64,000 nucleotides of DNA from NCBI RefSeq assembly GCF_019469205.1, contig NZ_CP048265.1, positions 806,001-870,000 of the forward strand, given 5' to 3'. Below are positions 23,708-59,295 of the stretch, one piece after another (the stretch's first letter is position 1; every line of letters starts with the position of its first letter). The notes under the pieces were generated by a model. It had not been told where the DNA came from. It did no database searches and was given only the letters and a program-made list of their open reading frames with translations. Source of the stretch: Gilliamella sp. ESL0405. Its GTDB lineage: Bacteria > Pseudomonadota > Gammaproteobacteria > Enterobacterales > Orbaceae. A program made the position numbers and the translations under genes.

Positions 23708-23730
23708 AAATGCAAATGATATTTGTTATT
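23708..23730. promoter_or_regulatory. Possible Fur box between permease and AraC gene
   Basis: AAATGATATTTGTTATT in the divergent promoter region partly fits the Fur consensus. It lies about 25-45 bp before the AraC-type start codon. The match is only moderate. Confidence 0.35.
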
Positions 23731-23755
23731 GTTTGAATTCTTTGAAGGAGGACGT

Positions 23756-24685: not shown

Positions 24686-26581
24686 TTAGCCATTACTTAC
24701 CTTATCTAAAGTTTGGCAAAGGGTAGCAGTTGGTATGGTTAAATTAACCGCTGTTTCACCATTATCCTTTTGTTGCCAATCGATCATTAAATTGGTTTTA
24801 GAAGCTATTCTAGTAAAGGCATAATGCTCCATTTCACGTACTAAATTAGCTAGTTCAGGGCAATCTAATTTAGTAAAAACTTCAGCATAGATACATTGGT
24901 TAATATGCACATGGTAACTGCCGTCTGCTAGTTTAGTTTGGGTAAAATTGAGTAGCCCCCATTGTTGGTAGCTTTCTAAAAAAGCTAACCAGTATTGGTA
25001 AACAGCTTGGGCAGGATTTTCTAGTAATGCAAAGGCTGTTGCTTGTGGCCATAACCATTGCATTTCCATATCGCCCGTTTCTAAAAACATTTTGCGATAA
25101 TAGGAATAAGCAAGTTGTTGGCCTATGGTTTCACGTAATAAACTATAACCAGAAGTAAACATACTAAGATCTTTGGTAAGTTTTTTCCATTCATTACTTT
25201 TTGCTGCATATTGCGCTAGTTGCTTACCGTGTTGTTGCCAACGTATTAACATGTTAATAATAAACTTTGTTAGTTGTAGTATATTAAGTTGTTTTGTTAA
25301 TGTTTGCCATACTTCGGATTGGAATAAGAAATGCTTTTGTAAGTAGGCCATGCGTGGATGTTGTTTGGCCACGGTATACCAATTTTTACCATAATGGCGC
25401 AGTGTTTGTACTTGGTGTGTATTTGATTCTAACCAACCAAAGTAATTATTTTCTGCTTGTAACTTTTTAGTATCAGCTTCTTGCCAAGTGATGCCCCTTG
25501 TATTTAACGCTTTGGCTAGATTGTTTCTGGTGGTAGTAGATAAAAACTCTACTGAATAAACACCATTTTTCTCAATTAAGCAGTTATTTAGCCAACAGTC
25601 AGTCACTGCACAAGTCATTAAGGCAGTTAGGTCGTAGGATGAAATACTACCTTGTAACATTAAGCCTTGTTCGGGGGCGTTATCTGGGAAGATATTAATA
25701 TAAGTATCAGGGTCTGCTTTAGGTTTGTTTTTAATCGATTGACCACTGTTATAAAATTTATTGGCTAAAAAGTTAATCGTTTTTTCACTAGGGTTAAAAG
25801 CAGCAATCGCTTTTGCCATACCCATTGGGAAAAACTGAATATGAAAGCGGCTATCTAACGTATTAATAGGAGCAGCTTGTTGATCGTAGCGCTCATTACT
25901 TAGGGAGATAACTTCGGGTGTACCATAAGGGATCATGGCTAATGGTTTTTCTTGACCAAAGAAATGAAACTTATAAGGGGCTTTCTTCCAAGGAGTAGCA
26001 ATAGTTTGTGATTTACCTTGTTGGAATACCGTAATTTTCTTGGAGAAATTAGCCAGCATAGAGTAAGGGCTAGTTTTACCACCACCATAGGCAGCGCCCA
26101 TATAAAGCCTAGAACGATAAACAGCATTTTTAGAGCGTTTTTGCTCAGCCAGTTGCATTAACATTAGGGTAGTAATACCAGGTGCTAAGCCCATGCCAGT
26201 ATAGATGCTGCATTGCTTTTGTTGAGCTGCTTCATGTAACGCTAAAATAGCCTTGCTGGCGCTAGCGCTATCATTAATATCAATACAATCAATACCTGCT
26301 TCTAAACAGAGTTTGTGTGGGCTAGCTTGTAATCGTTCCATAGGGCCGATGGCTAGAATAGCAAGGTCATAATCTTTTAATAGCGCTATGCTTTGTTGTG
26401 CGTTATTAATATCAATACTAACAAAGGGTATATCCTGTAGCTTAGAAGTGTTTTGGCGACTGGCACAGGTGAGTAATAACTCAGGATAAGTTTGTTTTAA
26501 GTAGTTTAAAATACGTTGCCCCGTTTCGCCTGTACCGCCAATAACAATAATTTTGGCTGTTGTTATGGTAGAGGTTGTCAT
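24686..26581 (-). CDS. Saccharopine dehydrogenase-like protein fused to a thiazoline-hydrolase-like domain
   Basis: The 631-residue protein has two parts. Residues 1 to about 390 have a Rossmann start (KIIVIGGTGETGQRILNYL) and resemble NAD(P)-binding saccharopine dehydrogenase/reductase proteins. Residues about 400-631 look like the family of L-2-amino-thiazoline-4-carboxylic acid hydrolases: HINQCIYAEVFTKLDCPEL corresponds to their conserved C-Y-A-E and G-x-PEL pattern, and a final Cys follows in TATLCQTL. In a thiazoline-making pathway a ring-acting domain makes sense: reduction, hydrolysis or editing of a thiazoline. It is the last gene of the operon, overlapping the previous stop by one base. 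The hydrolase call is by pattern memory. Confidence 0.6.
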   Translation of the reverse strand: MTTSTITTAKIIVIGGTGETGQRILNYLKQTYPELLLTCASRQNTSKLQDIPFVSIDINNAQQSIALLKDYDLAILAIGPMERLQASPHKLCLEAGIDCIDINDSASASKAILALHEAAQQKQCSIYTGMGLAPGITTLMLMQLAEQKRSKNAVYRSRLYMGAAYGGGKTSPYSMLANFSKKITVFQQGKSQTIATPWKKAPYKFHFFGQEKPLAMIPYGTPEVISLSNERYDQQAAPINTLDSRFHIQFFPMGMAKAIAAFNPSEKTINFLANKFYNSGQSIKNKPKADPDTYINIFPDNAPEQGLMLQGSISSYDLTALMTCAVTDCWLNNCLIEKNGVYSVEFLSTTTRNNLAKALNTRGITWQEADTKKLQAENNYFGWLESNTHQVQTLRHYGKNWYTVAKQHPRMAYLQKHFLFQSEVWQTLTKQLNILQLTKFIINMLIRWQQHGKQLAQYAAKSNEWKKLTKDLSMFTSGYSLLRETIGQQLAYSYYRKMFLETGDMEMQWLWPQATAFALLENPAQAVYQYWLAFLESYQQWGLLNFTQTKLADGSYHVHINQCIYAEVFTKLDCPELANLVREMEHYAFTRIASKTNLMIDWQQKDNGETAVNLTIPTATLCQTLDKVSNG

Positions 26582-27717
26582 TAAGTAGCCTCCGATGCTT
26601 TTAAGGTATTATTGGTGGTTGTGGTTAGTTGAATAATTTGTTGTGCTTGTAGTTGGTCGATAATCACTTCACTTGGAATAGCTTCGTGCAAGCTATAAGC
26701 CCCCGCAGTAATATTATTTTCTAACATGTATTTAGCAGCAATGGCAATGACTGTACCTGTTGCATAGTAGGTGTCGCCCGTTAATAAAGAACCTGTTATT
26801 TGCTGACCATTAGTAAGCTTAATTTCAGCTTGAATAGCATAGATAGGCTCACGCTTAAGCATATCTTTAGCCGAAGCCGAAGCTAGACGTTTAGCAGCTT
26901 TAGCCAATTTTTCAGGAGTTTTATATTGACCAAATATTTTAGCAATGGCGCAACTAAAAGCAGCTTTAGGGCCAATATTAGCGCCATATACTTTTAGGTT
27001 GGGAATATGGTATTGGTTAATTAATCTACGCAATTCTTCGGAGTAGATTAACATGGTACCCACTTTGCCAATGGGGGCTGGAAAAGTTTTCTTTTGGGTA
27101 GCTTTATAAAAGGGTACTTTTATAAGCTGCTTTTCAGCAATATAACAAAAGCCCCGTTGTTCACCAAAATCGCCTAAGCCAACGATAATATCCCATGCTG
27201 AGTTATAGCTCCAAGCATCACAACCTACATAAGACACTTGTAGGCTAACTATTATTTCGCCAGCGGTATATTGCTCTATTAGGTATTTAGGGTAAACACC
27301 TGATAGCCCTGGTAATAACCCCGCATTAATAATTAGTGGTGCTTTAGCAGGCTCATTAGCCACTAGATTATTAAGATGCTTTAATAATGGATCATAACCA
27401 CCTGCATCAATATAGGGAGTAGCGGTTTGGTAACAAACATCAGCAATGCTTGAGCCGATTATTTGTGAGGGACCGATACAGGAAATAACAAGGTCTGCTT
27501 CCTTGCAGTGTTGGCTAAGTTGTTCCTTGTTTAATGCATCGAAATTAAGGGAGTTTAATCGCGTTGCATAAGCGGCATATTCGGTTAAATCTGGTTTAGT
27601 ATGGCGTGTAACAATGCTGAGCTGGCATAAGGTATGTTTTAATAAATATTCACAAACTGTTTTACCTACTTTGCCCGTACCACCAAGAATTAAAATTTGC
27701 GGGGGATTATTTTGCAT
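26581..27717 (-). CDS. Saccharopine dehydrogenase-like reductase, possible thiazoline reductase
   Basis: About 378 residues starting MQNNPPQILILGGTGKVGKT, with AAGGAA correctly spaced before ATG 27717 (an in-frame ATG at 27735 is less well placed). The GGTGKVG Rossmann motif and the overall layout fit the saccharopine dehydrogenase-like NAD(P)-binding family. Pyochelin and yersiniabactin clusters use a Gfo/Idh/MocA-type thiazolinyl reductase (PchG/Irp3); none is seen here. This protein may replace it, as an unrelated reductase (PchK) does in enantio-pyochelin producers; I cannot verify homology to PchK. It shares its N-terminal type with the next gene, suggesting an old duplication. Confidence 0.62.
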   Translation of the reverse strand: MQNNPPQILILGGTGKVGKTVCEYLLKHTLCQLSIVTRHTKPDLTEYAAYATRLNSLNFDALNKEQLSQHCKEADLVISCIGPSQIIGSSIADVCYQTATPYIDAGGYDPLLKHLNNLVANEPAKAPLIINAGLLPGLSGVYPKYLIEQYTAGEIIVSLQVSYVGCDAWSYNSAWDIIVGLGDFGEQRGFCYIAEKQLIKVPFYKATQKKTFPAPIGKVGTMLIYSEELRRLINQYHIPNLKVYGANIGPKAAFSCAIAKIFGQYKTPEKLAKAAKRLASASAKDMLKREPIYAIQAEIKLTNGQQITGSLLTGDTYYATGTVIAIAAKYMLENNITAGAYSLHEAIPSEVIIDQLQAQQIIQLTTTTNNTLKASEAT

Positions 27718-27774
27718 ATATGTTATTCCTTGCATAGGCCGCTAGCTAATGCTGTAGCTAGCGGAGATTAAGTG

Positions 27775-29997
27775 TTAATAGGTGTAGGCAAAACCAACGC
27801 CCAAGGTTATACCCCTGCCTGGCGAGCCAATAGTGGCATCTGGGCCGTCTGGGAACATGGCAGGTATGTAGTAGCCCCATAGGTCATAGGTTTTATTTAA
27901 GAGGTTGTCGCCCCATACATAAACCTCGGCGTTATCACCTTTAACCGAAATTCGTGCATCGAGTTTGTTATAAGGTTTTAAACCAAAGTTATTTTGCACA
28001 TCTGCTTTACGTGAACCGATATAGCGGTTGGTTATTCTGGTTTCTAATGTTAGCCCAGCTATATTGAGTGGCACGCTGTGCAGCACCGTTAAGTTGGCAT
28101 TCCATTTGGCTGTATCGGGTACATAGTTATGTTTTTTAACTTCGGCTAAACTTTCGGTAGGAGTGCCTACAATTTTAGCGTTGGTGTAGCCTATGCCGCC
28201 TATAATTTCTAAATTCCAAGGTGTTTTCCAAAAGCCATCTAACTCTGCACCAAAGCTGCGAGTGTCATAATTTTCAACTACCGAAACAAAGGTAGCAGGG
28301 TTATAGGCCATTAGATGCTCACGTTTGGTATCGTTATAGAATAGGGCAGTATTTAGTCCTAATGTACTGGTGTCATTTTCAAGTTTTAGGCCTACTTCAT
28401 AAGCATTTACATAGGCTGATTTATACGCTTGATCTGATATGCCTAAGGCCGCAAAGTCGGTTCCTTCGTCATTAAAACCGCCTGTTTTATAACCTCTTGA
28501 GTAGAGTGCATAAAGGGTGGCGTTATCGTTTAATAGGTAGTTAAAACCTAAGCGACCAGTAGTATAGTGATCGGTTAATTTCTGTTTATCAAAAGCCATC
28601 AATGGTGTACCAGGAGGTGTCGCACCTGCATAGATAGCGTTAGCATTCCATTTGGCTTGATAGTTTTTCTTTTCGTAAGATTGGCGAATACCCGCAGTCA
28701 CTTTAAATTTATCGGTGATGGGGTAAGTTACCTCGCCAAATACGCCGATATTATCAGTTTTAAATTTTCTTCTAATATTGGCGTTCATTGGGTTAGTAGT
28801 GTAAAAAACATCTGCTACGTCATAGGTTTCTCTATGGCGGTGATTAGTGTAGTAGTTAATACCTGCTACCCAGAAAATAGGTGCTTCTGGTTTAGAAGAG
28901 ATTCTTAACTCTTGGTTAAAAAGATTTTCTTTAGTTAAAAATGACCAGTTAGAAGGTGGTCTCATACCGACTAAATGGTTGTATAAATCGCCTTCATAAA
29001 TTGGAGATTTAGTATCATGCTTGGTATAAGAATAGCCCGTAATAGAAGTTAATAGGGTATTATCAAGTTCATGTTCTACTTTTAAATTAAAGCGATAGAT
29101 ATTTTTTTCGCTTTTATCACTACCGTTAGGAATATCGATTTTAGGGTGATGGCTATAAGGACGCATCATATACATATTATCCATACCCATCGCATCTTCT
29201 ACTTCGGTGGTGAATAATACAGAAGTAGCCACCGATGGCTCCCATAATAATGAGCCTCTTGCCATTTTATTTCTAAGAATACTAACAGGCTTATTATCGT
29301 AACGATTATCTAAGATACTGTCTGCTTCATCATAACGAACCGCAAAACGACCACTTAACATATCGTTTAAAGGGCCGCTAATAACTCCTTCAGTTAGCTT
29401 CTGGTGGTCCTGTCCTAGCTCTGTTCTAAAGCCTGCTTCTAAATAACGGGTTGGTTTATTAGAAATAATATTAATCGCACCTGCTTCACTATTGCGACCA
29501 AATAGTGTTCCTTGTGGACCTTTTAGTACTTCTATACGTTCTACATCGAGTAAGTTGAGGGTGGTATTGTTAATGGATTGTGGCATGCCATCAACATTGA
29601 TACTCACTGAGCTGTCATCACCACTCATTGGCAGAATAGAACCTACACCACGCATTCGAATAGATTTAGCCCCACCCATATTACTAATTACCTGTACCCC
29701 CACCGTATCGTTTAACGCTTTTTCTAAGGTGGTTTCTCTTTTTTCAGTAATTTGTTTGTCATCAATAATGTTAATGGTAAAGGGAATATCTTTGGCAGAC
29801 TCTTTAACATGCCGCGCAGTAACAGTAAGTTGATCTAAATGAATAGCTTCATCTTCTTCGTCAATAGTTTCTGCTACCGCACTAAAGGATAAGCAAAAGG
29901 CACTGGCCAATAGCAAATTATTGGTTACTTTACTTTTATTAAAACAAACTAAAGACTGGTTGGTTAAGGTGTTAGTTAAAGCTAGTTTGTATCTCAT
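27775..29997 (-). CDS. TonB-dependent siderophore receptor
   Basis: The 740-residue outer-membrane receptor has a signal peptide ending near residue 43 (AVAET), a TonB box-like LDQLTVTAR, a plug domain with GVQVISNMGGAKSIRMRGVG and VERIEVLKGPQGTLFGRNS, and a 22-strand-type barrel ending in an aromatic residue (VGFAYTY). Several stretches are of FyuA type (yersiniabactin receptor), for example SINVDGMPQSINNTTLNLLD. It imports the ferric siderophore using TonB energy. It is embedded in the biosynthetic operon between thioesterase and reductase genes, so synthesis and uptake are coregulated. AGGAGAAAT precedes the ATG. Confidence 0.92.
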   Translation of the reverse strand: MRYKLALTNTLTNQSLVCFNKSKVTNNLLLASAFCLSFSAVAETIDEEDEAIHLDQLTVTARHVKESAKDIPFTINIIDDKQITEKRETTLEKALNDTVGVQVISNMGGAKSIRMRGVGSILPMSGDDSSVSINVDGMPQSINNTTLNLLDVERIEVLKGPQGTLFGRNSEAGAINIISNKPTRYLEAGFRTELGQDHQKLTEGVISGPLNDMLSGRFAVRYDEADSILDNRYDNKPVSILRNKMARGSLLWEPSVATSVLFTTEVEDAMGMDNMYMMRPYSHHPKIDIPNGSDKSEKNIYRFNLKVEHELDNTLLTSITGYSYTKHDTKSPIYEGDLYNHLVGMRPPSNWSFLTKENLFNQELRISSKPEAPIFWVAGINYYTNHRHRETYDVADVFYTTNPMNANIRRKFKTDNIGVFGEVTYPITDKFKVTAGIRQSYEKKNYQAKWNANAIYAGATPPGTPLMAFDKQKLTDHYTTGRLGFNYLLNDNATLYALYSRGYKTGGFNDEGTDFAALGISDQAYKSAYVNAYEVGLKLENDTSTLGLNTALFYNDTKREHLMAYNPATFVSVVENYDTRSFGAELDGFWKTPWNLEIIGGIGYTNAKIVGTPTESLAEVKKHNYVPDTAKWNANLTVLHSVPLNIAGLTLETRITNRYIGSRKADVQNNFGLKPYNKLDARISVKGDNAEVYVWGDNLLNKTYDLWGYYIPAMFPDGPDATIGSPGRGITLGVGFAYTY

Positions 29998-30046
29998 ATA
30001 TTTCTCCTAAAATCACACATAAAAGTGTTACTGCAATGCTTTGTAT

Positions 30047-30859
30047 TTAAGGGGTCATCGTCCATTGGTAGTGGCTTGTCATTTGTTGCTTAGCTATTTT
30101 GAGTAGTGCTTGAATAACCTTTGCTTGTTCCTCTATTAGATAGAAATGGTTGCCCTGAAAATATTCACAATGAAAGTTTTTGGTAGTTTGTTGTTGCCAA
30201 GCGAGTGCTTGCTCCTCAGTAAGTTCGGTATCCTGTCTAGCGATAAAAGTGGTTAGCGGGATATCAAGCGGGAGACTGTTTGGCTTTGGTCGCCATGATT
30301 CAATTAACTGGTAATCATTTCTAATAATAGGTAATAGCATTTGTGCTAGTTCAGGGTGAGTAGCTAACGAAAACTGGGTGCCATTTAGTTTTTCTAACTC
30401 ATCTAATAATGCTTGATCAGAATCGAGGTGTAATGAACTTGTATTCTTATGAGTAGGTGCTTCACTGGCTGATATCACGAGCTGATAGGGCAGTGGTAAG
30501 TTGCATTCACGTAGTGCTAAACACAGTTCATAAACAATATAACCGCCCATACTGTGACCGAATAATAGATAGGGTTTATCTAATAGCTGCTGTTCAGTTA
30601 AGGCGATTATTAAGCCATCGATTAGTTCATCCATATTGTTGATTAGCGGCTCTGCTAAGCGTTCTTCACGGCCTGGATATTGAATAGTCACTAGCTCTAT
30701 CGAGCTAGGCAAGGTCATCGTCCATTTTTTAAAGAAGCTAGCACAGCCACCTGCATGGGGTAAGCAGATAATCCGTTGTTTAGCTTGAGGCTGTGGTTGG
30801 TAAATTCGCCACCATGCCGCTTTTTGTTTAGTCACATTGAATGAGGCCACACTATTCAT
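30047..30859 (-). CDS. Type II thioesterase (PchC/YbtT-like)
   Basis: The 270-residue alpha/beta hydrolase has LPHAGGCASFFKKW (oxyanion region), the nucleophile Ser in FGHSMGGYIVYEL and the catalytic His in GNHFYLIEE. This is the pattern of stand-alone editing thioesterases in NRPS clusters, which remove wrong or stalled groups from carrier proteins. Its start overlaps the NRPS stop by 4 bp, so translation is coupled. Because the last NRPS module ends in a reductase, this enzyme is more likely a proofreader than the release enzyme. Confidence 0.9.
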   Translation of the reverse strand: MNSVASFNVTKQKAAWWRIYQPQPQAKQRIICLPHAGGCASFFKKWTMTLPSSIELVTIQYPGREERLAEPLINNMDELIDGLIIALTEQQLLDKPYLLFGHSMGGYIVYELCLALRECNLPLPYQLVISASEAPTHKNTSSLHLDSDQALLDELEKLNGTQFSLATHPELAQMLLPIIRNDYQLIESWRPKPNSLPLDIPLTTFIARQDTELTEEQALAWQQQTTKNFHCEYFQGNHFYLIEEQAKVIQALLKIAKQQMTSHYQWTMTP

Positions 30860-33800
30860 TGTGACTCCTTGTTATTAAACTTATTAATCAGTGGGATAAA
30901 GTAATCTTTGCTCACTTTAAAAGCTGTGATATCGAATGATTGGTTAGCTTCGATTAAATTTTCCATACCATATTGGTGATGGCCACCGTTATCCATACCC
31001 TCTTTAAAGTAGAGGTTAATAAATCCTGCCACAAAGTTATCCTGCAACTTTTGTTGCCATTCAGTAAATTCAAAGCCTTGTAATTGGCAGCCTAGCTCAA
31101 TAAACCAATGGTAGATTTGTTCTACATTTAAACTATCCGCTGAAACTAAATGGAAGTTCTTACTATTGCCGTAGTTGGTTTGGGTAATGGCGGTTATACT
31201 CTGTGCTACAAAATCAACGGGCACTAAATTAACTTTTAGGCTGGAGTGTGGGTAGGCAGCAATATCCAAACACGCTTTATAGAATTTTAAGAAAGCGTCA
31301 TCATTAATAAATGGCGTCTCAGTATCTGCCCATGTGATGGTGGCAGGGCGCATAATATTAATAGGAACACCTTGCTCTCTTGCTAGATAGAAAATATTTT
31401 CTGCCATAATCTTGGATTGCTCGTAAGTTAATTCAAGATCACGCCAGCGAGTAATAGTGGTTGTTTCAGCTACAGGCTGATTTTCATCATGTTCAGTTAA
31501 GGCATGATGTACCGCAATAGTGGAAACATAGTTAATTTGTTTAACTTTACTGGTAGTAGCTAGTTGTAGAATATTGGTAGCGCCTTGCACATTGGTAGGG
31601 AACAGGCTACTTAATGGATCCATTAAATTAATAATGGAGGCATTATGGATAATAATATCAATCTCATTAGCTAATCGTTGATAATGCTCTGCCGTTAGCC
31701 CTAAGTTATCTTTATCCACCGCACCACAAAATACCTTAATACGGTTTTCTGCATCAGACAGTGCTACACCTTTTTCCGCAGCAGCTTTAAAAAGACGATT
31801 AAACCCTTGCGCCTCATCTTCTGCCCGTAATAAACAGTAGATGGTATAATTGGTTTTTTGTAATAGAGTACTTAAGGTATAAATACCTAAATAGCCTGAA
31901 GCGCCCGTGAGTAAGATGTTTTGTGGGCTATGGGCAAGGTTAAAAGGGCTAGCGTCAGCAAGATTACTCATGGCTTGGTTAGCCATCGCGGTTAAATCAA
32001 TACTTTCTAACCATTTATTTTTTGTATCATTACTATTTCTTAAGGCGGTTGCCATATTAGCGAAGACACTATTATTAAAAATAAGCTCTAAAGTAGCAGG
32101 GTAACCTCTAGCTAGTAAGATGCTAAGTAAGTTAATCGCCGATAAGCTAGAGCCGCCTACTTGGAAAAAGTCATCTTGCCTTGAGACTTGCGTTATTTTT
32201 AATAGCTCTTGCCAAACACTGGCTAAATCTTGCTCTATTGGATCATCCGTAGGTTCTTCAAACAGTTGGCTAGTGGTGGTATGGGTTTCAGCAAATAGTT
32301 TAGCTAGCTGCTTACGATCTACTTTACCGTTGCTACTGAGTGGTAATTGTTGGTAAATATCAATTCGCTCAGGAATCATATAATCAGGTAAATCGGCAGC
32401 CAGTTGTTGTTTAACGTGGGCTATAAAATCTTGTTGCGCTGTGGCTGCTGATTCTTCAATAACTATAGCAGCGGCTAAACTGCTAGCATCAGCAATAGGT
32501 ATGGCAACCGCTTGTTTAATAGCGGGGATATGAGTGAGGGCTGCTTCGATCTCACCTAGCTCGATACGATATCCCCTAATTTTAGTTTGATTATCTTCAC
32601 GACCTAAAATCTCAATTAAACCTGATGCTGTGTAAAAACCGATATCGCCCGATTTATAAAGCCTTTGCCCTGTAATAGGGTGGCTAATAAACCGATAAGC
32701 GGTTTGCTCGTTATCTGCCACATAGCTATCTGCTAAACCATGGCCTGCAATATACATTTCGCCCACTACATAATCAGGGCATTGTTCAAGGCGCTCATTT
32801 AAAATATAGATTTGATGGTTAGTCAGTGGTTTACCATAAGGAATACGAATAGTTTGCTTAGTAAAACTTTGTTGGATGGGGTAGTTAACACACCAAATAG
32901 ACGTTTCCGTAGGGCCACCTAAACTAATCAGTTGTAGTTTTGGTAAATATTCATTAACTAAGGCAGGCAACGTAACAGGGATTTTATCGCCTGATAAAAA
33001 TGCACTATGCAGACTGCTTAAATTTAAATGGGCATCCCATTCCAACCAGTTAATTAACATCTGCATTTGTGCAGGTACAGAATTCCAACGGGTAATTTGA
33101 TGCTGTTCAATTAACTTGCCCCAATGTTCTGGGCTAGTTCTTTGCTCAGCATTAGGTAACACTAAACAAGCGCCTGCTGCTAAAGTGCCGAATATATCCC
33201 ATACCGATAAATCAAAACTAAAACTGGCAAGGCCGAGAGTTTTATCCTGATGGTTAACAGCAAAACGTTTATTAATTTCAGCTACCGTATTCCACGCCGC
33301 AAAGTGGCTAACCATAACCCCTTTAGGTCTACCCGTGGTGCCTGAGGTAAAAATAATATAGCCCGTTCTTTTAGTAGCTTCGGGTTGTTGTTGGTAGTTG
33401 TTTATAAATTGTTTAAAGGCGCTAGTAATAGTTGCTTGGTCAATATCAGCCATGGCTTTTGGTTGAGTAATTAATAGCGGCTTAATATTAGTTGGCCAGC
33501 TTTCAGCAAGGTGGTTACTATTGGTGATAATTAATTTTATAGTAGCATCTTCTAAAATAGCTTGTTTTCGTGCCATGGGTTGGTGGCTTTCAATAGGCAC
33601 ATAAGTGGCATCTGCTAGTAATACGCCTAGTACCGCCGCTATTTGCGCGGCTGATTTTTCCATTACAATGGCAATATTATCACCTGCTTGACAACCTGCT
33701 TGTTGTAGCTCCTGGCTAACTGCTAGCGCCTGTTCTGCCAGTTGTAAATAGGTGAGCTGATAGTCACTTGCAATAACGGCTATTGCATTAGGTCTAATCA

Positions 33801-45119: not shown

Positions 45120-45121
45120 AA

Positions 45122-48109: not shown

Positions 48110-48182
48110 AGGGGTAACCTTTATTTAATAAGCCGTTATTTATTTAACATTCCATTTGATTAGGCTAATTAGATATTTTATA

Positions 48183-48203
48183 AATGAGAATAGTTATCAT
48201 TTA
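48183..48203. promoter_or_regulatory. Fur box before the biosynthetic operon
   Basis: AAATGAGAATAGTTATCATTT forms a TGAGAAT-A-GTTATCA imperfect 7-1-7 repeat that fits the Fur consensus well. It lies about 75-95 bp before the start of the salicylate ligase/synthase gene. Confidence 0.72.
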
Positions 48204-48342
48204 TAAGGTAAAGGTTTCGTTAAAAAAGTTCTCCCCCTATCAGTCAAAAATATCCTTATCGGTTCTATTTTTTTAAGGCGTATATCTTTTCTGTTTTTAA
48301 GTGATTATTTTTTAACAATAAATTTTTTTGAAAATATTTTAT

Positions 48343-48362
48343 AAATAAGAATTATTCTGATT
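48343..48362. promoter_or_regulatory. Fur-like box before the ABC-importer operon
   Basis: TAAGAATTATTCTGA is a near-palindromic 7-1-7 element about 95-110 bp before the first ABC gene. It would allow iron control of the rightward transcript. Confidence 0.5.
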
Positions 48363-48454
48363 TGGATAATAATTAATCTTTTTAGGGTAGTAATGGTTAT
48401 TTAGAAAGGGCTATTTTTTAGCTTATTTTTGTCTTACTAAGGTTATTACCTATC

Positions 48455-51972: not shown

Positions 51973-51999
51973 ATAGCAAGTAAACACTAGGGAGCAACT

Positions 52000-53400
52000 A
52001 TGGCTGTAGGGAAGATTTATTTAGAAGCAATGATGCACCATTGTGGTATTTTATTTTCTAAAGGTTATCGTTTTAAAGGAACCATTGATAAACAGAAGTT
52101 ACAACAAAGTAGTACGGCAATACTGGGTGCCATCAATAAGTTTCAATATAAAATCACAGTTGCTAGTAATGGTGAACCATTATGGCAAAAAACATCAATA
52201 AACATACCCCCATTAATCAATATGCAATGCGCAGATATAGAACAACGCTTTGCTGAGTTTTCTGCTTCTATTTTTAATACATCTAAAGAGTTTGATGAGT
52301 TCCCAATGTTTTTTACGTTATTAGAAAGTGATACTAATGGCGATGAAAAAAATTATATTTTTGCTCAAACAGTTAATCATACTTATTGTGATGCAAGGGC
52401 AGCAGAGCTAATTATAAATTGGTTAATAGATTATTATAACGCCTTAGTAGAAGGTAATTTACAAGGGCAGCAAAAAATAATCACTAAGTTAAATAATTTA
52501 ACTACCTTAGCCAGTAAGAATGTTTATAGCTTTGCTAAGGCAGATTGTTTAATAAAAATGCCATGGTATAAACATGTGGCTAATCTATTTAAAATTATTA
52601 CTTATAAAATAAAAGATACGGGCAATTACTCTATTTCTTATGAGCAAATTAAGCAGAACTTAGCAGAATATCAGCAAAAATTACGTAACCCTATCATGCG
52701 TTACTATGATGTAAATTCTTTAATCAATTACTACAAAAAATATTATCCTAACGTAAACACTAATAGCCTTATTAGTGCATTATTAGTAAAAACTTTTTAT
52801 TGGCTTAATGTGCATAAAAAGCAATTAGCCAATGCTGAGATGATTAGTTATCGAATGTTATCAGATATTTTAACGCCCAAAATGCGTAACCAGTATTTAG
52901 GTAACTATATTGCTTATGTACCCGTAACCATGAATGCTAATCAATCATTAATAGATATTGCACAAAATATAGATGCATGGGTAAAGGAATTTCGCGATAC
53001 TAAATTAGATGTTAGTCAGTATAGTTTTTTAGAGTTTGCTATTGCTAAAAAGTTAGTGGGGAAAAAAGATGATCCTATTTCTTTTACCCATACCTCATTT
53101 AATAACAGGCGTTTATTTAAAAAAGTAAACACATTAATAGGGGCTACTTTTATTGAAATGATTGCCTCTATTAATTCTGAGCCGCTAGATTTAATGGGGG
53201 CTATGATGAATAATAAAATTATCGCCTGTACTTCTTTATCCAATAGTAATCGCTTATATTTAACTTTTTATCCATTAATCGGTTCAGATCAACCGAGTAT
53301 TGATGTGGCCGATGCTTTGGCTCTAGTTATCACTCAATTACAACAAGAATTACCCGATAAGGAAATGATAAGTAAGCAAGTGATAAGTTCAGTTGCTTAA
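52000..53400 (+). CDS. Stand-alone condensation/acyltransferase-fold protein
   Basis: The 466-residue protein resembles the chloramphenicol acetyltransferase/condensation superfamily. The HxxxD active-site motif is present as N126-H127-TYC-D131, followed by an amphipathic helix (ARAAELIINWLIDYYNAL). No carrier or adenylation domain is attached. It is cotranscribed with the ABC pair behind a GGGAGCAACT ribosome site. It could acylate the siderophore or an alcohol formed by reductive release, or act as a free condensation enzyme. I do not recognise a named homologue in known pyochelin- or yersiniabactin-type clusters. It converges with and overlaps the next gene by 4 bp. Confidence 0.6.
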   Translation: MAVGKIYLEAMMHHCGILFSKGYRFKGTIDKQKLQQSSTAILGAINKFQYKITVASNGEPLWQKTSINIPPLINMQCADIEQRFAEFSASIFNTSKEFDEFPMFFTLLESDTNGDEKNYIFAQTVNHTYCDARAAELIINWLIDYYNALVEGNLQGQQKIITKLNNLTTLASKNVYSFAKADCLIKMPWYKHVANLFKIITYKIKDTGNYSISYEQIKQNLAEYQQKLRNPIMRYYDVNSLINYYKKYYPNVNTNSLISALLVKTFYWLNVHKKQLANAEMISYRMLSDILTPKMRNQYLGNYIAYVPVTMNANQSLIDIAQNIDAWVKEFRDTKLDVSQYSFLEFAIAKKLVGKKDDPISFTHTSFNNRRLFKKVNTLIGATFIEMIASINSEPLDLMGAMMNNKIIACTSLSNSNRLYLTFYPLIGSDQPSIDVADALALVITQLQQELPDKEMISKQVISSVA

Positions 53401-54662
53401 AAGAAATATCTAAAACCTAGTTCAATAAAATCATTATTGGAATAGGAGCGGAATAGGCTTTGTGAATGACCACCACCCAGTACATAGAGGCGAGCAATAA
53501 AGGTCCAATGGTCGTTATAAGCGTATTCCGCATAAGTTTCTACTGAGTGTTCATTGTTATAACCGTAAAAGCCGCTAACACCCAATGTTAATGTGTCATT
53601 AAAAAAGGGTTTATTAACAGCAAAGGTAGCGCCATAGTTATCTTTATAGTTAGGGTAGTGATCCCAAAATAATTGAATATTAGCGTACAGATTATCATTA
53701 AAGTTTCTATCCCAACCTAAGATAACTTGCTGTAGTTCAGAAAAATAAAGTAATCCTTGCTTATCATAAACGGGCAGTTGGTCTGTATAAGCCGCTTCAA
53801 TACGGTAGGTATTACTATTTTGACTGATGGCGGCATTAATATTCCATGTACGTTGTTTAGTGGGTTCTAATAAAATATGGTTGTTGCCTTTTACTTTAGC
53901 TGAGGGTAAATCAGAATAACCTTCAAAGTAGGCAAAGCCCCAATCATAACCTTGATTATATTGGGTAAATCTAGCTCCTAGTTCGGGTTTATGGGGGTTA
54001 TATTTTTTAGTTAATTGGATTAAACCTGATTTTTCATATTCTCTTAACTGGTGGAAAGAATCTGGTTCCCAAGGGCTACCGTATTTAGGCAGTTTGCGTT
54101 CACGACCAAAGGGCATAACCACTAAGTCAACTGCACCAAAGGAAAACTGTTGTTCTAAACGCATTAACCAGGAAGGGCGCTTTTGAATGGTTCTACCATT
54201 GGCAATAGGATCCCGTAGATAGGTGGCATTTAGTAGGTCAATAGTACTGCGTCCATCTGTTGTACCCCAAGTGATTCTTTGTTTGCCAATGGTTAATTGG
54301 GTAGCAGGTAAATCAATAGCTGAACCATGAAAAACCATATAGGCTTCATTTAAATCAGCGCGCGTGGTTGGTTGATAACGATAGGTGCTAGGGTCGTAAT
54401 CAAGGTAAGTATTGATATAAGCTTTCCATGTCTCTTGCTCATACAATAAGCTGCTGTTTAAGCGTTGCCTCGTAGATAGCCAACGCTGTTGATTAGTAAA
54501 TTTTCTATTACGACTTTCTAGGGTATTAGAGAAGCGCCAATTTTTTTTAAATTCTGTTTGCTCGTTTAAATTAAAATCAAAGGTATCATCTGCATAAACA
54601 GTAAAACAGCTTATTAATAAGATAAAAAAACTATATAAAGGCAGTCGTTTGCAAAGCACCAT
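53397..54662 (-). CDS. Outer-membrane beta-barrel protein (DUF1302-like)
   Basis: The 421-residue protein has a signal peptide ending in VYADD and many alternating, aromatic-rich strands typical of a barrel. Features such as LNEAYMVFHGSAIDLPATQLTIGKQRITWGTTDG resemble DUF1302-type or alginate-export-like porins, and it ends in FRYFF, a good barrel C-terminus. It is the third gene of a set after an RND-type exporter and a LolA-like protein, so it may be the outer-membrane part or accessory of that export route. No substrate is known. Confidence 0.65.
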   Translation of the reverse strand: MVLCKRLPLYSFFILLISCFTVYADDTFDFNLNEQTEFKKNWRFSNTLESRNRKFTNQQRWLSTRQRLNSSLLYEQETWKAYINTYLDYDPSTYRYQPTTRADLNEAYMVFHGSAIDLPATQLTIGKQRITWGTTDGRSTIDLLNATYLRDPIANGRTIQKRPSWLMRLEQQFSFGAVDLVVMPFGRERKLPKYGSPWEPDSFHQLREYEKSGLIQLTKKYNPHKPELGARFTQYNQGYDWGFAYFEGYSDLPSAKVKGNNHILLEPTKQRTWNINAAISQNSNTYRIEAAYTDQLPVYDKQGLLYFSELQQVILGWDRNFNDNLYANIQLFWDHYPNYKDNYGATFAVNKPFFNDTLTLGVSGFYGYNNEHSVETYAEYAYNDHWTFIARLYVLGGGHSQSLFRSYSNNDFIELGFRYFF

Positions 54663-54672
54663 TACGATTCCT

Positions 54673-55443
54673 TTAGCGTTTTAGTTTATTTTGATCAAAA
54701 ATATTATCCGCAATATTGGTGTTGTATTGTGTATCTGAATATTGCATAAGGGTACGTGTATTACGTAAGCTGTTTTGCATCACTAATTTGGTGGGCGTCC
54801 AAATATTATCTATTTGTTTAAAATCACCCTGTTGCAGGGTTTTGGTTAGTCTATTGTTTTGGTCGATATATTCTATTTTTACTGGTAGGTTATATTCTTT
54901 ATCGACCCAAATACGTCTTTTGCTGTAGTTAGTTTCATGTTGTTTTTCGGGGATAGCTGTGGATTCTATAACATAAGCTGGTCTGTTGTTGATAGTATCC
55001 ATTTTAATAAACTGATGGGTGTCGCTGTCTACATGGCGATACTCCATATCTTCTAAAGCAAAATCACTACGCATAAAGGCACTTTTTTTACCACCACCAC
55101 TAATACGCCTTACCATATTTTCTGAAGGAAAGTAGACCCATAAATCATCTTCTTTTTTAGGGTCATCATATGACCAAGATAAAAATTGAGTATCTTGAAT
55201 ATCAATCGGTTCTATAAACTTATTAAGTGAATGTCGGTTTTTACCGTACTTTTTTACCCACATTTCCATTTTACGAATTAGCTTTTGATTACCCCGTTCT
55301 ATCATCATCACTGCATAACGATGGGTATCTTTTGAACTATCCGCATTATCCACTAATACCGCAATATCTCGGCCTGTTAAGTTATCTGCATAACAAGATA
55401 AAGAAAAACAAACAGCTATTAAGATAAGTAAATATTTTTTCAT
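54673..55443 (-). CDS. LolA-like outer membrane lipoprotein-sorting protein
   Basis: The 256-residue protein has a cleavable signal (MKKYLLILIAVCFSLSCYAD) and then a LolA/LppX-like fold. The WSYDDPKKEDDLWVYFPSEN and MRSDFALEDMEYRHV stretches match proteins annotated as outer membrane lipoprotein-sorting proteins. In many genomes these are encoded next to RND exporters of the MMPL kind, as here (8 bp downstream of that gene). It may carry a hydrophobic substrate across the periplasm. Its role with the siderophore is inferred from context. Confidence 0.78.
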   Translation of the reverse strand: MKKYLLILIAVCFSLSCYADNLTGRDIAVLVDNADSSKDTHRYAVMMIERGNQKLIRKMEMWVKKYGKNRHSLNKFIEPIDIQDTQFLSWSYDDPKKEDDLWVYFPSENMVRRISGGGKKSAFMRSDFALEDMEYRHVDSDTHQFIKMDTINNRPAYVIESTAIPEKQHETNYSKRRIWVDKEYNLPVKIEYIDQNNRLTKTLQQGDFKQIDNIWTPTKLVMQNSLRNTRTLMQYSDTQYNTNIADNIFDQNKLKR

Positions 55444-55451
55444 GTTGATTC

Positions 55452-57803
55452 CTATGAGTGATTAATAACAAGCTGCTCTAGGGAAGCTTTATCTGAAAGT
55501 TGGTTATCTTGGGTTTCAGCGCCTAATGGTTTAAAAATAGAAAATAAAAGAGGGGTTACTAAAAAATCAGTAACTAATGCGGTGCTATAGGCGAAGATAG
55601 AGATAAGGGCAAAGATAAAAGGCCCATCATATTTAGTGTAAGCAAAGCCAATAAAGCCAGCACTTATCACTAGAGTAGTGAAAAATAATACGCGCCCAAC
55701 ACTGGAAACCGTATGCAAATAGGCTTCTTTATAGCAACCATATTTTTTAAAGTAGTATTGATAGCGACTAAAGAAATGGATAGTGTCATCAATAGAAACC
55801 CCTAGAATAAGTGGGGCGAGTGTTACCATAATCATATTCAGTTTAGCGCCCGTTAATCCCATAAGGCCAAGACTAAATAAAATAGGCAGTAAATTAGGCA
55901 CCATTGCAATTAAACCTAATTTAATCGAGCGTAATGCCAGCGACATCACAATAGCAATGGCAATAAATGCATAGGTAAAACTAAATAATTGCCCCCATGC
56001 TAAATAATCGGCTACTGCACTAAGAATACTTAAACCACCCGTTGCTTCAATCATTCTATTGGGCATTTGCTGTTGTACAAAATGGTTAACATCATTTTCT
56101 AGTTTTTGAATATCGGTTAGTTTTAGTGACTTAGTGCGTGCTTGAATACGTGCCATATCAAAAGAAAAACTAACAAACTGATCTAATAATTTGCCACCGC
56201 CTGATTCATAGAGTAATAAGTATTCTGCTACTTGTGCTTGGGATAGGGGAAGTTTATAAAAGTCTTGTTGGTTTTCGTGAACTGCTCGATTCATTTGTTT
56301 CAGCTGATCTAAAAAACTAGAGGTTTGCATAATCATTGGATGACTATTGAGATAATGCTGTAGTTTTTCAATATCTGCTATGGTGGCTAATTCTTTTACG
56401 CCATCTTCTTTATGGGTTTTAACCATAAACTCAATGGACATGGAGCCACCCATACGCTCATCCACAAACTCAAAAGACTGGCGTAATGGGTCTGTTGTGG
56501 GCAAATCGTGAATGAAGGCAGTTTCTATTTTTAATTGTGTTAGACCAAAGACAGCCAATAAAATAGCTATAGTAAAGCCAATGATAATTGATTTAGGGTA
56601 GAGCAAAACCATTTTGCACATCAAGATTAACGAGCGATCAAAGAAATCTTTTGAACGTTTAGTTTTACCATCCACCACAATGGTTTTATTCGAAGGTTTT
56701 AGCCTTGTAAAAGACAATAAAGGTAACGCAAAAATAAAGGTAACCAATAGCGCAATAAAGGCGCCTAATGCTGCTTGAAAACCTAATTCCTTAAGGGGAA
56801 TTAAGTCAGTAAATACAAAAGATAAATAACCAACCGCTGTAGTAACCGTGGTTAGAATAAGTGGTTTATAAATAATTGCTAAAGTTTTTTGAATAGCTTC
56901 GTGTGGAGTAGTGCCTTGTAGATAAAAATGCATAAACTCAGCAATCACATGCATGGTATCGCCAATACCTACACAAAGTAATAGGGTAGGCAGCATAATA
57001 ATTAACATATTAAGTTTAAAGCCAAATATTGCCACTAAGGCCATTGTCCAAATAATCGCAATAAACACCGTAATTAATGGAATAACTACACCAATAACAC
57101 TGCGGGTGGTAAAGGCGAGCACACAAGTCATCGCTATTAAAGCAATCAGTAACCAGATGGGGCCTTCCTGTGCGGTATCAGCATCTATTTGATAGCTCAT
57201 CACAGGCGCACCCACAATATAAGTGGTTAGGTCTGGATAGTTAGCCACCACCTGTTCAACAATAGGCGGTGTTTCTTTGCGGGGGTTAACACTGTCGTCA
57301 GGGTAGTTTATAAATTCAAGTAAAATGCCAACGGTATTTCCATCTTTGGCAATTAACCGATCATGATAAGCAGGGTCAGTTATTATGCTATCCCTTAGCT
57401 GCTGCATTTCCTGCTGAGATAAGTTAAAGTTATCAATTAGGGGTTTAATACTAATAGTATCTTGTTGGCCAGTAATGGATTCGACATTACCTATCCAAGT
57501 AATTTTATCTAAGTAGGGGACTTTATCATTCAGTTCCCTCACTAACTCTTTAATGCGGTTTAAGTGTTGGGTTTGGATAGGTTGTTTGGTATCGATTAAA
57601 ATAAAAATAAAATCGTCATTACCAAAGGTTTCTTTAAATTCTTCTAAGCGAACTTTGGTTTGGTCATTTTGTTGAAAGAAGCTTTCGTTCGAGTTGTCTA
57701 TTTCTAACTTGCTAAGTTGTGGAAAAGCGAGGGCAGTTATGATGGCTACCATAACAAGACATAAAACCCTATAGCGAAGAATAGCATTAATAATTGTCTT
57801 CAA
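55452..57803 (-). CDS. RND-superfamily exporter (MMPL type)
   Basis: The 783-residue protein has the RND plan: helix 1, a large periplasmic loop, helices 2-6, then the same pattern again. Conserved stretches include IIMLPTLLLCVGIGDTMHVI and VTLAPLILGVSIDDTIHFF, the paired sterol-sensing-like segments with Asp residues for proton relay. It starts with TTG at 57803 behind AAGGAG. Such single-chain exporters often move lipids or hydrophobic molecules. A Fur-like box in its promoter ties it to iron starvation, so siderophore export is the most attractive role, but it is unproven. Confidence 0.8.
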   Translation of the reverse strand: MKTIINAILRYRVLCLVMVAIITALAFPQLSKLEIDNSNESFFQQNDQTKVRLEEFKETFGNDDFIFILIDTKQPIQTQHLNRIKELVRELNDKVPYLDKITWIGNVESITGQQDTISIKPLIDNFNLSQQEMQQLRDSIITDPAYHDRLIAKDGNTVGILLEFINYPDDSVNPRKETPPIVEQVVANYPDLTTYIVGAPVMSYQIDADTAQEGPIWLLIALIAMTCVLAFTTRSVIGVVIPLITVFIAIIWTMALVAIFGFKLNMLIIMLPTLLLCVGIGDTMHVIAEFMHFYLQGTTPHEAIQKTLAIIYKPLILTTVTTAVGYLSFVFTDLIPLKELGFQAALGAFIALLVTFIFALPLLSFTRLKPSNKTIVVDGKTKRSKDFFDRSLILMCKMVLLYPKSIIIGFTIAILLAVFGLTQLKIETAFIHDLPTTDPLRQSFEFVDERMGGSMSIEFMVKTHKEDGVKELATIADIEKLQHYLNSHPMIMQTSSFLDQLKQMNRAVHENQQDFYKLPLSQAQVAEYLLLYESGGGKLLDQFVSFSFDMARIQARTKSLKLTDIQKLENDVNHFVQQQMPNRMIEATGGLSILSAVADYLAWGQLFSFTYAFIAIAIVMSLALRSIKLGLIAMVPNLLPILFSLGLMGLTGAKLNMIMVTLAPLILGVSIDDTIHFFSRYQYYFKKYGCYKEAYLHTVSSVGRVLFFTTLVISAGFIGFAYTKYDGPFIFALISIFAYSTALVTDFLVTPLLFSIFKPLGAETQDNQLSDKASLEQLVINHS

Positions 57804-57852
57804 GGGAGTAGCTCCTTCTATATTTGCTTGCCATAAAGAAATAGGTTGTAGA

Positions 57853-57876
57853 TAATAATGAGAAATATTATCATTA
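57853..57876. promoter_or_regulatory. Fur box between RND operon and TetR gene
   Basis: TAATGAGAAATATTATCATTA contains TGAGAAA-T-ATTATCA, a strong fit to the Fur 7-1-7 pattern. It lies in the 110-bp divergent promoter, about 50 bp from the RND start and 40 bp from the TetR start. Confidence 0.75.
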
Positions 57877-57913
57877 GAACGACATTAGAAAAATGATAGA
57901 AAATAATAGATAA

Positions 57914-58597
57914 ATGGCTAAATACGAACTTAATGAGCAACAGTTACCGCAAGAGCCAAGGGGCAGGCCAACACGGATCAATCGCGAGAAAATTATCGAA
58001 GCAGCGATGAAGTTACCCTCACAACAATTAAGCATGACTAGTGTGGCGGCTGCTTTAGGCGTGAAACCACCGACCTTGTATTACCATATTCAAAGCATTG
58101 ATGAATTACGCTCTTTAATGGTGGAAAAAATAACGTGGGATTTACGGGTACCCGTTGCTGATACTTGGCAACAATGGTGCAAAGGTTTTGCTTATGAGTT
58201 TAGGGGTTGGTTAATAGCAGAGCCTATTAGGTTGCAGTTGGTAGAAATGGTTGGCCCAGTGGCGGGGGCTGCTACTGATTTTATCACCCAATGTTTAGAA
58301 AGCTTAGCTAAATTAGGTTTTCCGCAAAAGATTGTAGTTCAATCATTCTTTTTATTAGCACAAGCGGTGCAAGATTTTGTTAGTAGGGAGTATGAGTATT
58401 ACCGCCAACCTGCTAACTTTGCGAAAGTTATTGAGCAAATGCAGCAGTTTACAATACCCAGCAATGCTGATAAGCCAGCTTATAATTTATTGGTCACACA
58501 AATGCAGCAGTTAGATTTTGAAAAGTTTTTTGAGTTTCAAATAGCGATAATTATTGCTGGGTTAGCTGATTATATTAAGGATAATAAAGAGCAATAA
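57914..58597 (+). CDS. TetR-family regulator
   Basis: The 227-residue protein has an N-terminal TetR helix-turn-helix (SMTSVAAALGVKPPTLYYHI) preceded by a basic RGRPTRINREKIIEAA segment, and a helical ligand-binding C-terminal domain. It is divergent from the RND operon, the usual place for a local repressor of an exporter. The same intergenic region holds a Fur-like box. The PPTase gene follows after 5 bp, so the two share a transcript. Confidence 0.85.
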   Translation: MAKYELNEQQLPQEPRGRPTRINREKIIEAAMKLPSQQLSMTSVAAALGVKPPTLYYHIQSIDELRSLMVEKITWDLRVPVADTWQQWCKGFAYEFRGWLIAEPIRLQLVEMVGPVAGAATDFITQCLESLAKLGFPQKIVVQSFFLLAQAVQDFVSREYEYYRQPANFAKVIEQMQQFTIPSNADKPAYNLLVTQMQQLDFEKFFEFQIAIIIAGLADYIKDNKEQ

Positions 58598-58602
58598 CCA
58601 TA

Positions 58603-59295
58603 ATGAATGCCATGTTTCTTGAACAGTTTAATGAGATAACTATTCAACAAATAAAAATTAAGCGTTGCCATTATTACCCAGAACGATGGCAACAAGAGTT
58701 ATTTAAAATCTATCAAATTACTATGCCAACGCAGCTTAAGAATGCTGTACCAAAAAGATTAACAGAGTTTGTGGCAGGGCGTGTGTTAGCTAAACAGTTA
58801 TTAGCAGAATATAGTTGCACGCAGTCAGTCGATATTTTGCAAGATAGATCACCCGCTTGGCCAGCAGGTTTTGTTGGCTCTATTACGCATGCTAAAGGTA
58901 TTGCCGCTTGTGCAGTATTACCGATAACCCAAGCAAATAGTTTAGGGCTTGATTTAGAGTGTTGGTTAACGCCTGAAGTAGCCTCGCAAATTCAGCCCAA
59001 TATTTGTTTAGCAGAGGAATTAAATAACGTTAATGTTGATTTTAGTTTTACTAAAAAAGTTACCCTAATTTTTTCAGCCAAAGAAACTTTATATAAAATG
59101 CTTTATCCTAAAGCAAAACAATTTTTTGATTTTACTGATGCTAAAATAATCAACCAACAAGGAGATAATAGATCAGGTGTATTGGAAATAAAGCTGTTGA
59201 AAAACTTAACATTGAATTATTTAGAAAATGATAATTTCTTAATTAACTATATTTGTAATGAACATAGTTGTTTAACTTTGAGTGTATTGTATTAG
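58603..59295 (+). CDS. 4'-phosphopantetheinyl transferase (EntD-like)
   Basis: The 230-residue protein has the Sfp/EntD-type motifs: SITHAKGIAACAV, SLGLDLECW (magnesium-binding acidic residues) and FSAKETLYKMLYP (the K-E pair). Such enzymes attach the phosphopantetheine arm to carrier domains, here the ArCP and the four PCPs of the two NRPSs. Its location at the edge of the island makes the cluster self-sufficient. It is coupled to the TetR gene by a 5-bp gap. Confidence 0.88.
   Translation: MNAMFLEQFNEITIQQIKIKRCHYYPERWQQELFKIYQITMPTQLKNAVPKRLTEFVAGRVLAKQLLAEYSCTQSVDILQDRSPAWPAGFVGSITHAKGIAACAVLPITQANSLGLDLECWLTPEVASQIQPNICLAEELNNVNVDFSFTKKVTLIFSAKETLYKMLYPKAKQFFDFTDAKIINQQGDNRSGVLEIKLLKNLTLNYLENDNFLINYICNEHSCLTLSVLY

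Follow-up and report, generated by a model that had tools for sequence, protein, structure and literature searches.

A conserved gene cluster of bee-gut Gilliamella predicted to make a reductively released salicyl-polythiazoline metallophore

What would a salicylate-capped assembly line that ends in a reductase make in a bee-gut bacterium, and how would its product be finished? The question is raised by a 64,000-nucleotide stretch of Gilliamella sp. ESL0405 (contig NZ_CP048265.1, positions 806,001 to 870,000; hereafter the window), which carries two nonribosomal peptide synthetases (NRPSs), NRPS1 and NRPS2, among transport and regulatory genes. Gilliamella is a bee-gut genus. The host genome is a single contig of 2.81 Mb, and the GC content of the window is 36.4%. 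We read the locus as an iron-regulated system for a salicyl-polythiazoline metallophore; its chain would leave the assembly line as an aldehyde, which would next be either reduced or joined to an amine. The probability of this reading, with a product predicted from the genes, is roughly 0.6. The locus stands for a metallophore cluster type that is conserved and as yet uncharacterised, and whose enzymes for release and tailoring form an unusual set.

Pfam detected three Condensation, three AMP-binding, three AMP-binding_C and four PP-binding stretches in NRPS1. NRPS2 contained TubC_N, Condensation, AMP-binding, AMP-binding_C, PP-binding and NAD_binding_4. An earlier reading of the locus, made without database searches (the sequence-only reading), had proposed one aryl carrier protein (ArCP) and four modules of cyclisation (Cy), adenylation (A) and peptidyl carrier protein (PCP) domains, and these calls bore it out. 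Each Cy module owned an A domain, and the carrier serine was intact in all five carrier domains. The terminal domain of NRPS2 scored 231.5 bits for TIGR01746 (thioester reductase; cut-off 213.35), so the last module closes in a reductase (R) domain and not in a thioesterase (TE), as had been claimed. The NADPH-binding and Y-x-x-x-K motifs of this reductase were present in 8/8 NRPS2 proteins compared, window included. No methyltransferase (MT), ketosynthase, acyltransferase or TE family was found in NRPS1 or NRPS2 by Pfam at E <= 0.001, in agreement with the earlier statement that methyltransferase and polyketide modules are absent.

The salicylate synthase scored 457.3 bits against a TIGR03494 cut-off of 325.15. 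The pocket of the ligase, read by eye, was N-F-C-A-Q-G-V-I, the same as the PchD code in the consulted part of PMC3672683. Both results support the salicylate start put forward in the sequence-only reading. The A-domain pocket codes were obtained by alignment and have nine positions here, against eight in the published table (PMC3672683, table part). A1, A2 and A3 shared the pocket DLFNLSMIW. The tabulated cysteine codes include DLFNLSLI for PchE and DLYNMSMI for HMWP2; all eight tabulated positions of A1–A3 occur in the cysteine enzymes of that table, and the ninth, W331, is not tabulated there. The predicted incorporation of at least three cysteines is well supported by these pockets.

Directly downstream of the NRPS genes and the receptor gene lie two saccharopine-dehydrogenase-like proteins, SDH and SDH_ATC. 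SDH_ATC is a hallmark of the cluster type, and we used it as the marker for relatives, with a match over 500 bits counted as strong. In the order sample 9/394 genomes had a strong match; the other 23 of the 32 genomes matched at E <= 0.001 were weak, Rossmann-type hits. In the class-wide sample the own genome alone of 369 matched at E <= 1e-50. A scan of named genomes gave 10 loci: two Gilliamella metagenome-assembled genomes (MAGs), Kangiellaceae, Psychromonas hadalis, RUG065, three Ruminobacter, a Succinivibrionaceae fragment and a distant Marinilabiliaceae (30%). Three plasmid records carried SDH_ATC at 43–44% identity (Vibrio lentus LMG 21034 p1, Pseudoalteromonas piscicida 2515 and Pseudoalteromonas sp. 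NC201); the V. lentus plasmid is typed as conjugative. The 14 loci examined were the nine strong order-sample genomes, the Gilliamella MAGs G004 and G014, and the three plasmid records. Because the gene order recurs in other genera, the cluster is not a chance assembly.

NRPS2 was complete with its R domain in 11/14 loci. SDH_ATC thus co-occurred with a reductase-ended NRPS in 11/14 loci, and the other three are incomplete. No whole NRPS2 homologue was found in genomes G286 and G367, and the P. hadalis copy was broken, in a locus where reading frames are interrupted and A4 is fused with HxxxD in one frame. G286 carried another NRPS with an R domain elsewhere (27–29% identical), and G367 gave an R-like match of 30.5 bits only. 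NRPS1 lay on one contig in 7/14 loci and had three modules in five of them (the window, Gilliamella G001, V. lentus, P. piscicida and NC201), so that the three-plus-one line is present in two Gilliamella, two Pseudoalteromonas and one V. lentus plasmid. NRPS1 was interrupted at or in an A domain in 4/4 Ruminobacter-group genomes, and no module count is readable there. In the window the A1 and A2 regions of NRPS1 had 94.4% DNA identity over about 1.5 kb, a repeat at which assemblies of the gene from short reads could break or collapse.

At the protein level, A1 and A2 were 93.8% identical in the window, 98.7% in G001 and 100% in V. lentus, and A1 and A3 were 83.2%, 94.8% and 95.6% identical, respectively. 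A domains of the same module had 54–61% identity across genera. The Cy domains were position-specific across genera (48–56%), with Cy1 distant from Cy2 and Cy3 (33–38%). With the A domains homogenised within genomes and the Cy domains position-specific, the pattern fits repeated gene conversion that may hold the three cysteine modules together. The NRPS1 A domains of Pseudoalteromonas (62–67% within a genome) showed little homogenisation.

In the route that we propose, salicylate would be loaded onto the ArCP of NRPS1. The first three units would be cysteines closed to thiazolines, giving 2-hydroxyphenyl-(thiazoline)3, and a fourth cysteine-like unit would be added, probably cysteine, with serine possible. 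Reduction by the R domain would turn the thioester into a free aldehyde, and the molecule would be finished by SDH and SDH_ATC, either by ring C=N reduction in place of an imine reductase or by action on the released aldehyde. For an all-cysteine chain with an end that is only reduced, the computed [M+H]+ values are 463.0385 for the aldehyde (C19H18N4O2S4) and 465.0542 for the alcohol (C19H20N4O2S4). Uptake would involve the TonB receptor and the FptX-like and/or YbtPQ-like inner-membrane systems, and expression would be controlled by AraC and Fur-like sites. The sequence-only reading had ended the chain in an aldehyde or alcohol. Its reductive release stands; the end itself is in doubt because of the adjacent SDH pair, one member of which was modelled with the fold of an imine-reducing enzyme.

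In the model and fold search, the N-terminal part of SDH_ATC had the fold of carboxyspermidine dehydrogenase/saccharopine reductase with an NAD(P) Rossmann domain. Its C-terminus resembled L-2-amino-thiazoline-4-carboxylate hydrolase: PF14196 gave 27.3 bits for the window protein against a gathering cut-off of 28.1, and matched 6/8 family members at E <= 0.01. This C-terminal half (about residues 400–620) gave a good-quality model. It is conceivable, and we hold it tentatively, that SDH_ATC takes the place of the Gfo/Idh/MocA thiazolinyl imine reductase, converting at least one thiazoline to a thiazolidine and leaving a simple alcohol or aldehyde end. TIGR01761, the family of the Irp3/PchG imine reductases, was not found in the own genome or in any of the 14 SDH_ATC genomes or plasmid records (0/14), whereas the Pantoea control, which has SDH and no SDH_ATC, was positive (1/1). 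In clusters of Pantoea and Streptomyces, tblastn matched SDH (PF03435) at 23–25% identity to genes next to the NRPSs. Those clusters lack SDH_ATC and end in MT-PCP-TE, whereas the window line ends in PCP-R, and SDH_ATC sits after SDH at the place where they carry a Gfo/Idh/MocA gene. This analogy is positional, however, and the absence of a family does not show the action of a substitute. Three of the 14 (V. lentus and the two Pseudoalteromonas) are plasmid records without chromosomes, and two are incomplete MAGs (G004, 81% complete; G014, 74%). A grouping of the Pantoea and Streptomyces SDH proteins with the window SDH was not retained, since the unrooted tree placed them with neither SDH nor SDH_ATC (node support 0.10) and only midpoint rooting grouped them with SDH; shared membership of the Pfam family is all that we claim.

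A somewhat unlikely alternative is that the last unit is not cysteine (for example serine, closed to an oxazoline), which would make the product a salicyl-(thiazoline)3-X. The A4 pocket, DLWNFSLIW, is off the tabulated cysteine codes at two positions, W239 and F299 (PMC3672683, table part). It also varied among relatives: DLWNFSMIW in three Ruminobacter NRPS2 (two of them read a second time), DLWNMSQIW in Pseudoalteromonas, DLLNFSLVT in V. lentus and DLLNFSLVA in genome G146. In contrast, the 15 A1–A3 domains of the five complete lines were uniform (DL[FY]N[LM]SMIW). Positions D235, L236, N278, S301, L322 and I330 of A4 do occur in cysteine enzymes of the same table, and the catalytic residues of Cy4 are intact, which argues against another substrate. 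On its pocket the fourth residue is likely cysteine, with real doubt; it is less certain than the others because of the off-code, variable A4. The sequence-only claim that all four A domains are cysteine-like was thus clean for A1–A3 and weaker for A4.

In fungal lysine synthesis, Lys2 (A-PCP-R) frees an aldehyde and saccharopine reductase acts next. The window, by analogy, would have the same succession of R release to an aldehyde and a saccharopine-reductase-fold enzyme. The fungal pathway differs in belonging to primary metabolism, handling one residue and forming no heterocycles, so the likeness is one of mechanism and not of membership. By this logic, the polythiazoline would come off R as an aldehyde, and SDH_ATC, alone or together with SDH, would link it to an amine or amino acid through reductive amination, an outcome that we consider unlikely. 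Against it, SDH-type genes also occur in the TE-ended equibactin, sorangibactin and mupirochelin systems, as far as the consulted parts of their descriptions go, and the scheme lacks a known amine donor. The best fold match of SDH_ATC was 3abi, a lysine dehydrogenase, with amine dehydrogenases ranked lower. An extended version is doubtful. In it, a salicyl-tetrathiazoline aldehyde would be captured by an amine via SDH_ATC in the manner of Lys2/Lys9, giving an amine- or amino-acid-tailed metallophore common to bee-gut, rumen and marine bacteria, with a lineage-specific last unit. Such a release-and-cap route is unlike any siderophore among the open-licence literature matches listed.

The catalytic Asp and helper Gln were kept in all four Cy domains (roles of Asp, Gln and Thr as in the consulted part of PMC9547227). 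In Cy1, Ala replaced the catalytic Thr in 8/8 Cy1 domains aligned and in two further Pseudoalteromonas Cy1; V. lentus Cy1 was not picked up by the motif search and stands outside this comparison. The idea that Cy1 is dead and the first ring not formed was dropped because PchE-Cy1 (7emy), an active domain, also has Ala at this position. Cy2 and Cy3 had N for the first D of DxxxxD and Q for its pairing Arg, with the T/D/Q catalytic residues kept; loss of Cy2/Cy3 function through NxxxxD was rejected on these grounds. The D-to-N change was coupled with the R-to-Q salt-bridge change in Gilliamella and V. lentus, yet Pseudoalteromonas Cy2 keeps D and has Gln, which counts against covariation. An ordinary, shorter yersiniabactin- or pyochelin-like siderophore with modules skipped or inactive, which the altered Cy1, Cy2 and Cy3 and the one-module NRPS1 of two drafts would favour, is improbable given the active PchE-Cy1, the paired exchange in Gilliamella and V. 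lentus and the intact Ser of every carrier.

For the iron regulation of the proposed polythiazoline system, we scored 14 positions of a Fur-box consensus in nine regions, with 500 shuffles for each reported site. The operon promoter site TGAGAATAGTTATCA matched 12/14 (3/500 shuffles as good), the best site at the G001 operon promoter 12/14 (6/500), and the site upstream of MMPL and TetR, TGAGAAATATTATCA, 12/14 (4/500). In the whole window the pattern occurred 5 times against 1.1 expected, and two of the five were these promoter sites. Because Fur-like words are common across the whole window, the Fur evidence is modest. The V. lentus cluster contained a FecCD-type iron importer with genes annotated as iron ABC transporter permeases. 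The metal in Gilliamella is likely iron.

Several observations weigh against the proposed system. No metabolite of the cluster has been seen to date, and the product is predicted from genes alone. The A4 pocket is off-code and variable, and the coverage of the imine-reductase search was uneven, as described. NRPS1 had one module in two drafts, the G004 MAG and P. hadalis; for G004 we think that assembly collapse over near-identical A domains is the probable explanation. The remaining six Fur regions reached at most 10/14 (both Pseudoalteromonas 9/14, V. lentus 10/14). On a 19-base Fur consensus the window, coding sequence included, gave 53 words at 13/19 or better against a Markov mean of 20.2, and the operon promoter site itself scored only 13/19. 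Since Ruminobacter is strictly anaerobic, the metal may be other than Fe(III).

We compared the cluster with known systems through the consulted parts of their published descriptions. Equibactin, sorangibactin, mupirochelin and coelibactin form the group sharing the salicyl cap, Cy domains and an SDH-like gene (EqbM, SrbE, MchE), and mupirochelin also shares AraC control and a four-residue backbone. Equibactin, sorangibactin and mupirochelin differ in having an Irp3/YbtU-type reductase, one or more MTs and a terminal TE; the window has R release and SDH_ATC, without MT and imine reductase. Lusichelin of Lusitaniella coriacea shares a salicylate synthase, four cysteine modules with Cy domains, AraC and a TonB receptor, and differs in its interspersed polyketide synthase modules, oxidase and C-methyltransferase domains and TE release. 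The sequence-only reading held that a salicylate chain with four cysteines and such an end matches no known siderophore. No described compound or report of this cluster was present among the matches listed in open-licence literature, and the consulted part of the Gilliamella pan-genome study (PMC9598484) gives NRPS and siderophore types only; however, salicylate followed by four heterocycle-forming units is already known from lusichelin and the mupirochelin backbone.

Yersiniabactin (HMWP2/HMWP1) has the salicylate start, ArCP-Cy and a YbtPQ-like ABC pair in common with the window, and its cluster has an AraC regulator as well. It differs in its three cysteines with a polyketide synthase module, MT, TE and the YbtU reductase. 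The pyochelin pathway has an MT, a TE and the PchG reductase. Cy1 was nearest PchE-Cy1 among solved structures, sharing Ala for Thr, and an FptX-like importer is also common to both. Pyochelin (PchE/PchF) differs in using two cysteines only and in the reported inserted epimerase domain of PchE. In yersiniabactin one A domain probably serves three PCPs (PMC3672683, consulted part), whereas the window has one A domain per module.

SDH_ATC is a single marker gene by which this type of biosynthetic gene cluster can be recognised, and the cluster predicts specific masses to look for in cultured strains. It bears on what follows the reductive release of a polythiazoline, and on the job of the saccharopine-dehydrogenase-like gene in the equibactin and sorangibactin clusters, where the consulted descriptions give it as needed for production with its role not assigned. 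Full-length NRPS2 was found in 4/35 Gilliamella genomes sampled (own included, some incomplete), which suggests metal competition within the bee gut.

The features are collected in Table 1. In the minus-strand operon the ligase/salicylate synthase fusion comes first, followed by NRPS1, NRPS2, the type II thioesterase, the TonB receptor and the two SDH-type proteins. The genes of two ABC half-transporters and then of the HxxxD protein diverge from this operon. One flank carries the AraC regulator and the RhtX/FptX-like importer, and the other the MMPL/LolA/outer-membrane trio, the TetR regulator and the phosphopantetheinyl transferase (PPTase). The sequence-only reading had described receptor, importers, exporters, regulators and PPTase as encoded together, and the linked uptake and regulation genes were found. 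Its range of 24686–59295 had the content claimed; the AraC gene and the RhtX/FptX-like importer, just outside, belong to the cluster too. Its list of contents was otherwise correct, with no mention of the two SDH-type proteins or of the free-standing type II thioesterase.

Table 1. Features of the cluster and its flanks, in window positions
Feature	Position	Strand	Basis
RhtX/FptX-like major facilitator protein, probable inner-membrane ferri-siderophore importer	22373..23611	-	TIGR02718 274.5 bits, below cut-off 356
AraC-family regulator	23723..24667	+	PF12833 E 1.1e-20
SDH_ATC, saccharopine-reductase-fold protein with C-terminal ATC_hydrolase-like domain	24686..26581	-	
SDH, second saccharopine-dehydrogenase-like protein	26581..27735	-	PF03435 E 4.3e-13
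TonB-dependent receptor	27775..29997	-	PF00593, PF07715
Type II (editing) thioesterase	30047..30859	-	PF00975 E 2.6e-48
NRPS2, TubC_N-Cy4-A4-PCP4-R, 1525 aa	30856..35433	-	Pfam, TIGR01746, pocket alignment
Terminal thioester reductase domain of NRPS2, approximate bounds	30859..31941	-	TIGR01746; motifs TGASGYLG, VST, YEQSK
NRPS1, ArCP-(Cy-A-PCP)x3, 3229 aa	35430..45119	-	Pfam
NRPS1 modules, approximate	41715-44852, 38589-41714, 35433-38588	-	
Salicyl-AMP ligase fused to salicylate synthase	45122..48109	-	TIGR03494; PDB relatives 1md9, 5wm2, MbtI/Irp9
Fur-box-like palindrome TGAGAATAGTTATCA between divergent operons	48185..48199	.	12/14 to consensus
ABC transporter half 1, YbtPQ/IrtAB-like	48455..50227	+	
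ABC transporter half 2, YbtPQ/IrtAB-like	50224..51972	+	
Free-standing HxxxD protein, condensation/acyltransferase-like, accessory	52000..53400	+	invariant HxxxD motif
Outer-membrane-type protein, probable exporter part	53397..54662	-	neighbourhood in Ruminobacter-group genomes
LolA-like protein	54673..55443	-	PF17131 E 1.5e-53
MMPL/RND-type transporter	55452..57803	-	PF03176 E 1.4e-34
Fur-box-like palindrome TGAGAAATATTATCA upstream of MMPL and TetR	57859..57873	.	12/14 to consensus
TetR-type regulator	57914..58597	+	PF02909 E 2.3e-4, PF00440 E 6.1e-4
Sfp/EntD-type PPTase	58603..59295	+	PF17837, PF01648

G001, G004 and G014 kept the RhtX/FptX-like protein next to the cluster, at 74% conservation. 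AraC homologues stood beside or near SDH_ATC in 9/13 other loci and were absent from the four Ruminobacter-group ones. ABC half 1 had partners at 42% in V. lentus and 37% in the P. piscicida cluster, and half 2 at 45% and 39%, respectively. An importer role for the pair was not adopted, as its direction is not established: YbtPQ (6p6i) and IrtAB were among the best bacterial matches, and eukaryotic ABCB1-type chains scored higher.

Of the nine order-sample genomes that matched SDH_ATC strongly, seven had the HxxxD protein, and the motif was present in 6/6 compared. It had no Pfam match at E <= 0.001 (best at E <= 10: AHSP, 0.75) and no NCBIfam match at E <= 1e-8. A profile search returned only the PapA5-type 8s6l at E 0.13 and one unrelated chain, and the AlphaFold2 model from two sequences had a pLDDT of 35. 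The outer-membrane-type protein had a homologue beside SDH in 4/4 Ruminobacter-group genomes, and LolA-like homologues (55–60%) lay near SDH in the same four; dismissal of the exporter trio as an unrelated neighbour was rejected on these grounds. The outer-membrane-type protein had no match in 9/14 genomes searched (including G001, G004, G014, G286, G146 and G205), and no member of the trio matched in the examined Vibrio and Pseudoalteromonas stretches, so the trio appears to be accessory.

Other NRPS and metallophore genes were seen in the genomes compared. Gilliamella G021 (contig 18, 123824-165791) carried a large, different NRPS region with Cy-A modules up to 39% identical, and this genome had no SDH_ATC or SDH match. 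The Gilliamella genomes G001, G005, G006 and G011 had NRPS frames of 4963–4982 aa that were only about 30% identical to NRPS2 and represent a different NRPS. The Marinilabiliaceae (Bacteroidota) locus (L064:9974-12251) contained two adjoining SDH-type genes, both lacking the ATC-like domain, next to an NRPS of 2079 aa, and is possibly a distant cousin of the cluster. About 17 kb from SDH_ATC on the V. lentus plasmid (L097:38929-41857), a second iron ABC importer set stood by a nicotianamine-synthase-family gene, perhaps another metallophore system. In the window, a TniQ/HTH protein and a Mutator-family (IS256-type) transposase at 60380-63263, just beyond the PPTase end, may mark a mobile edge of the cluster.

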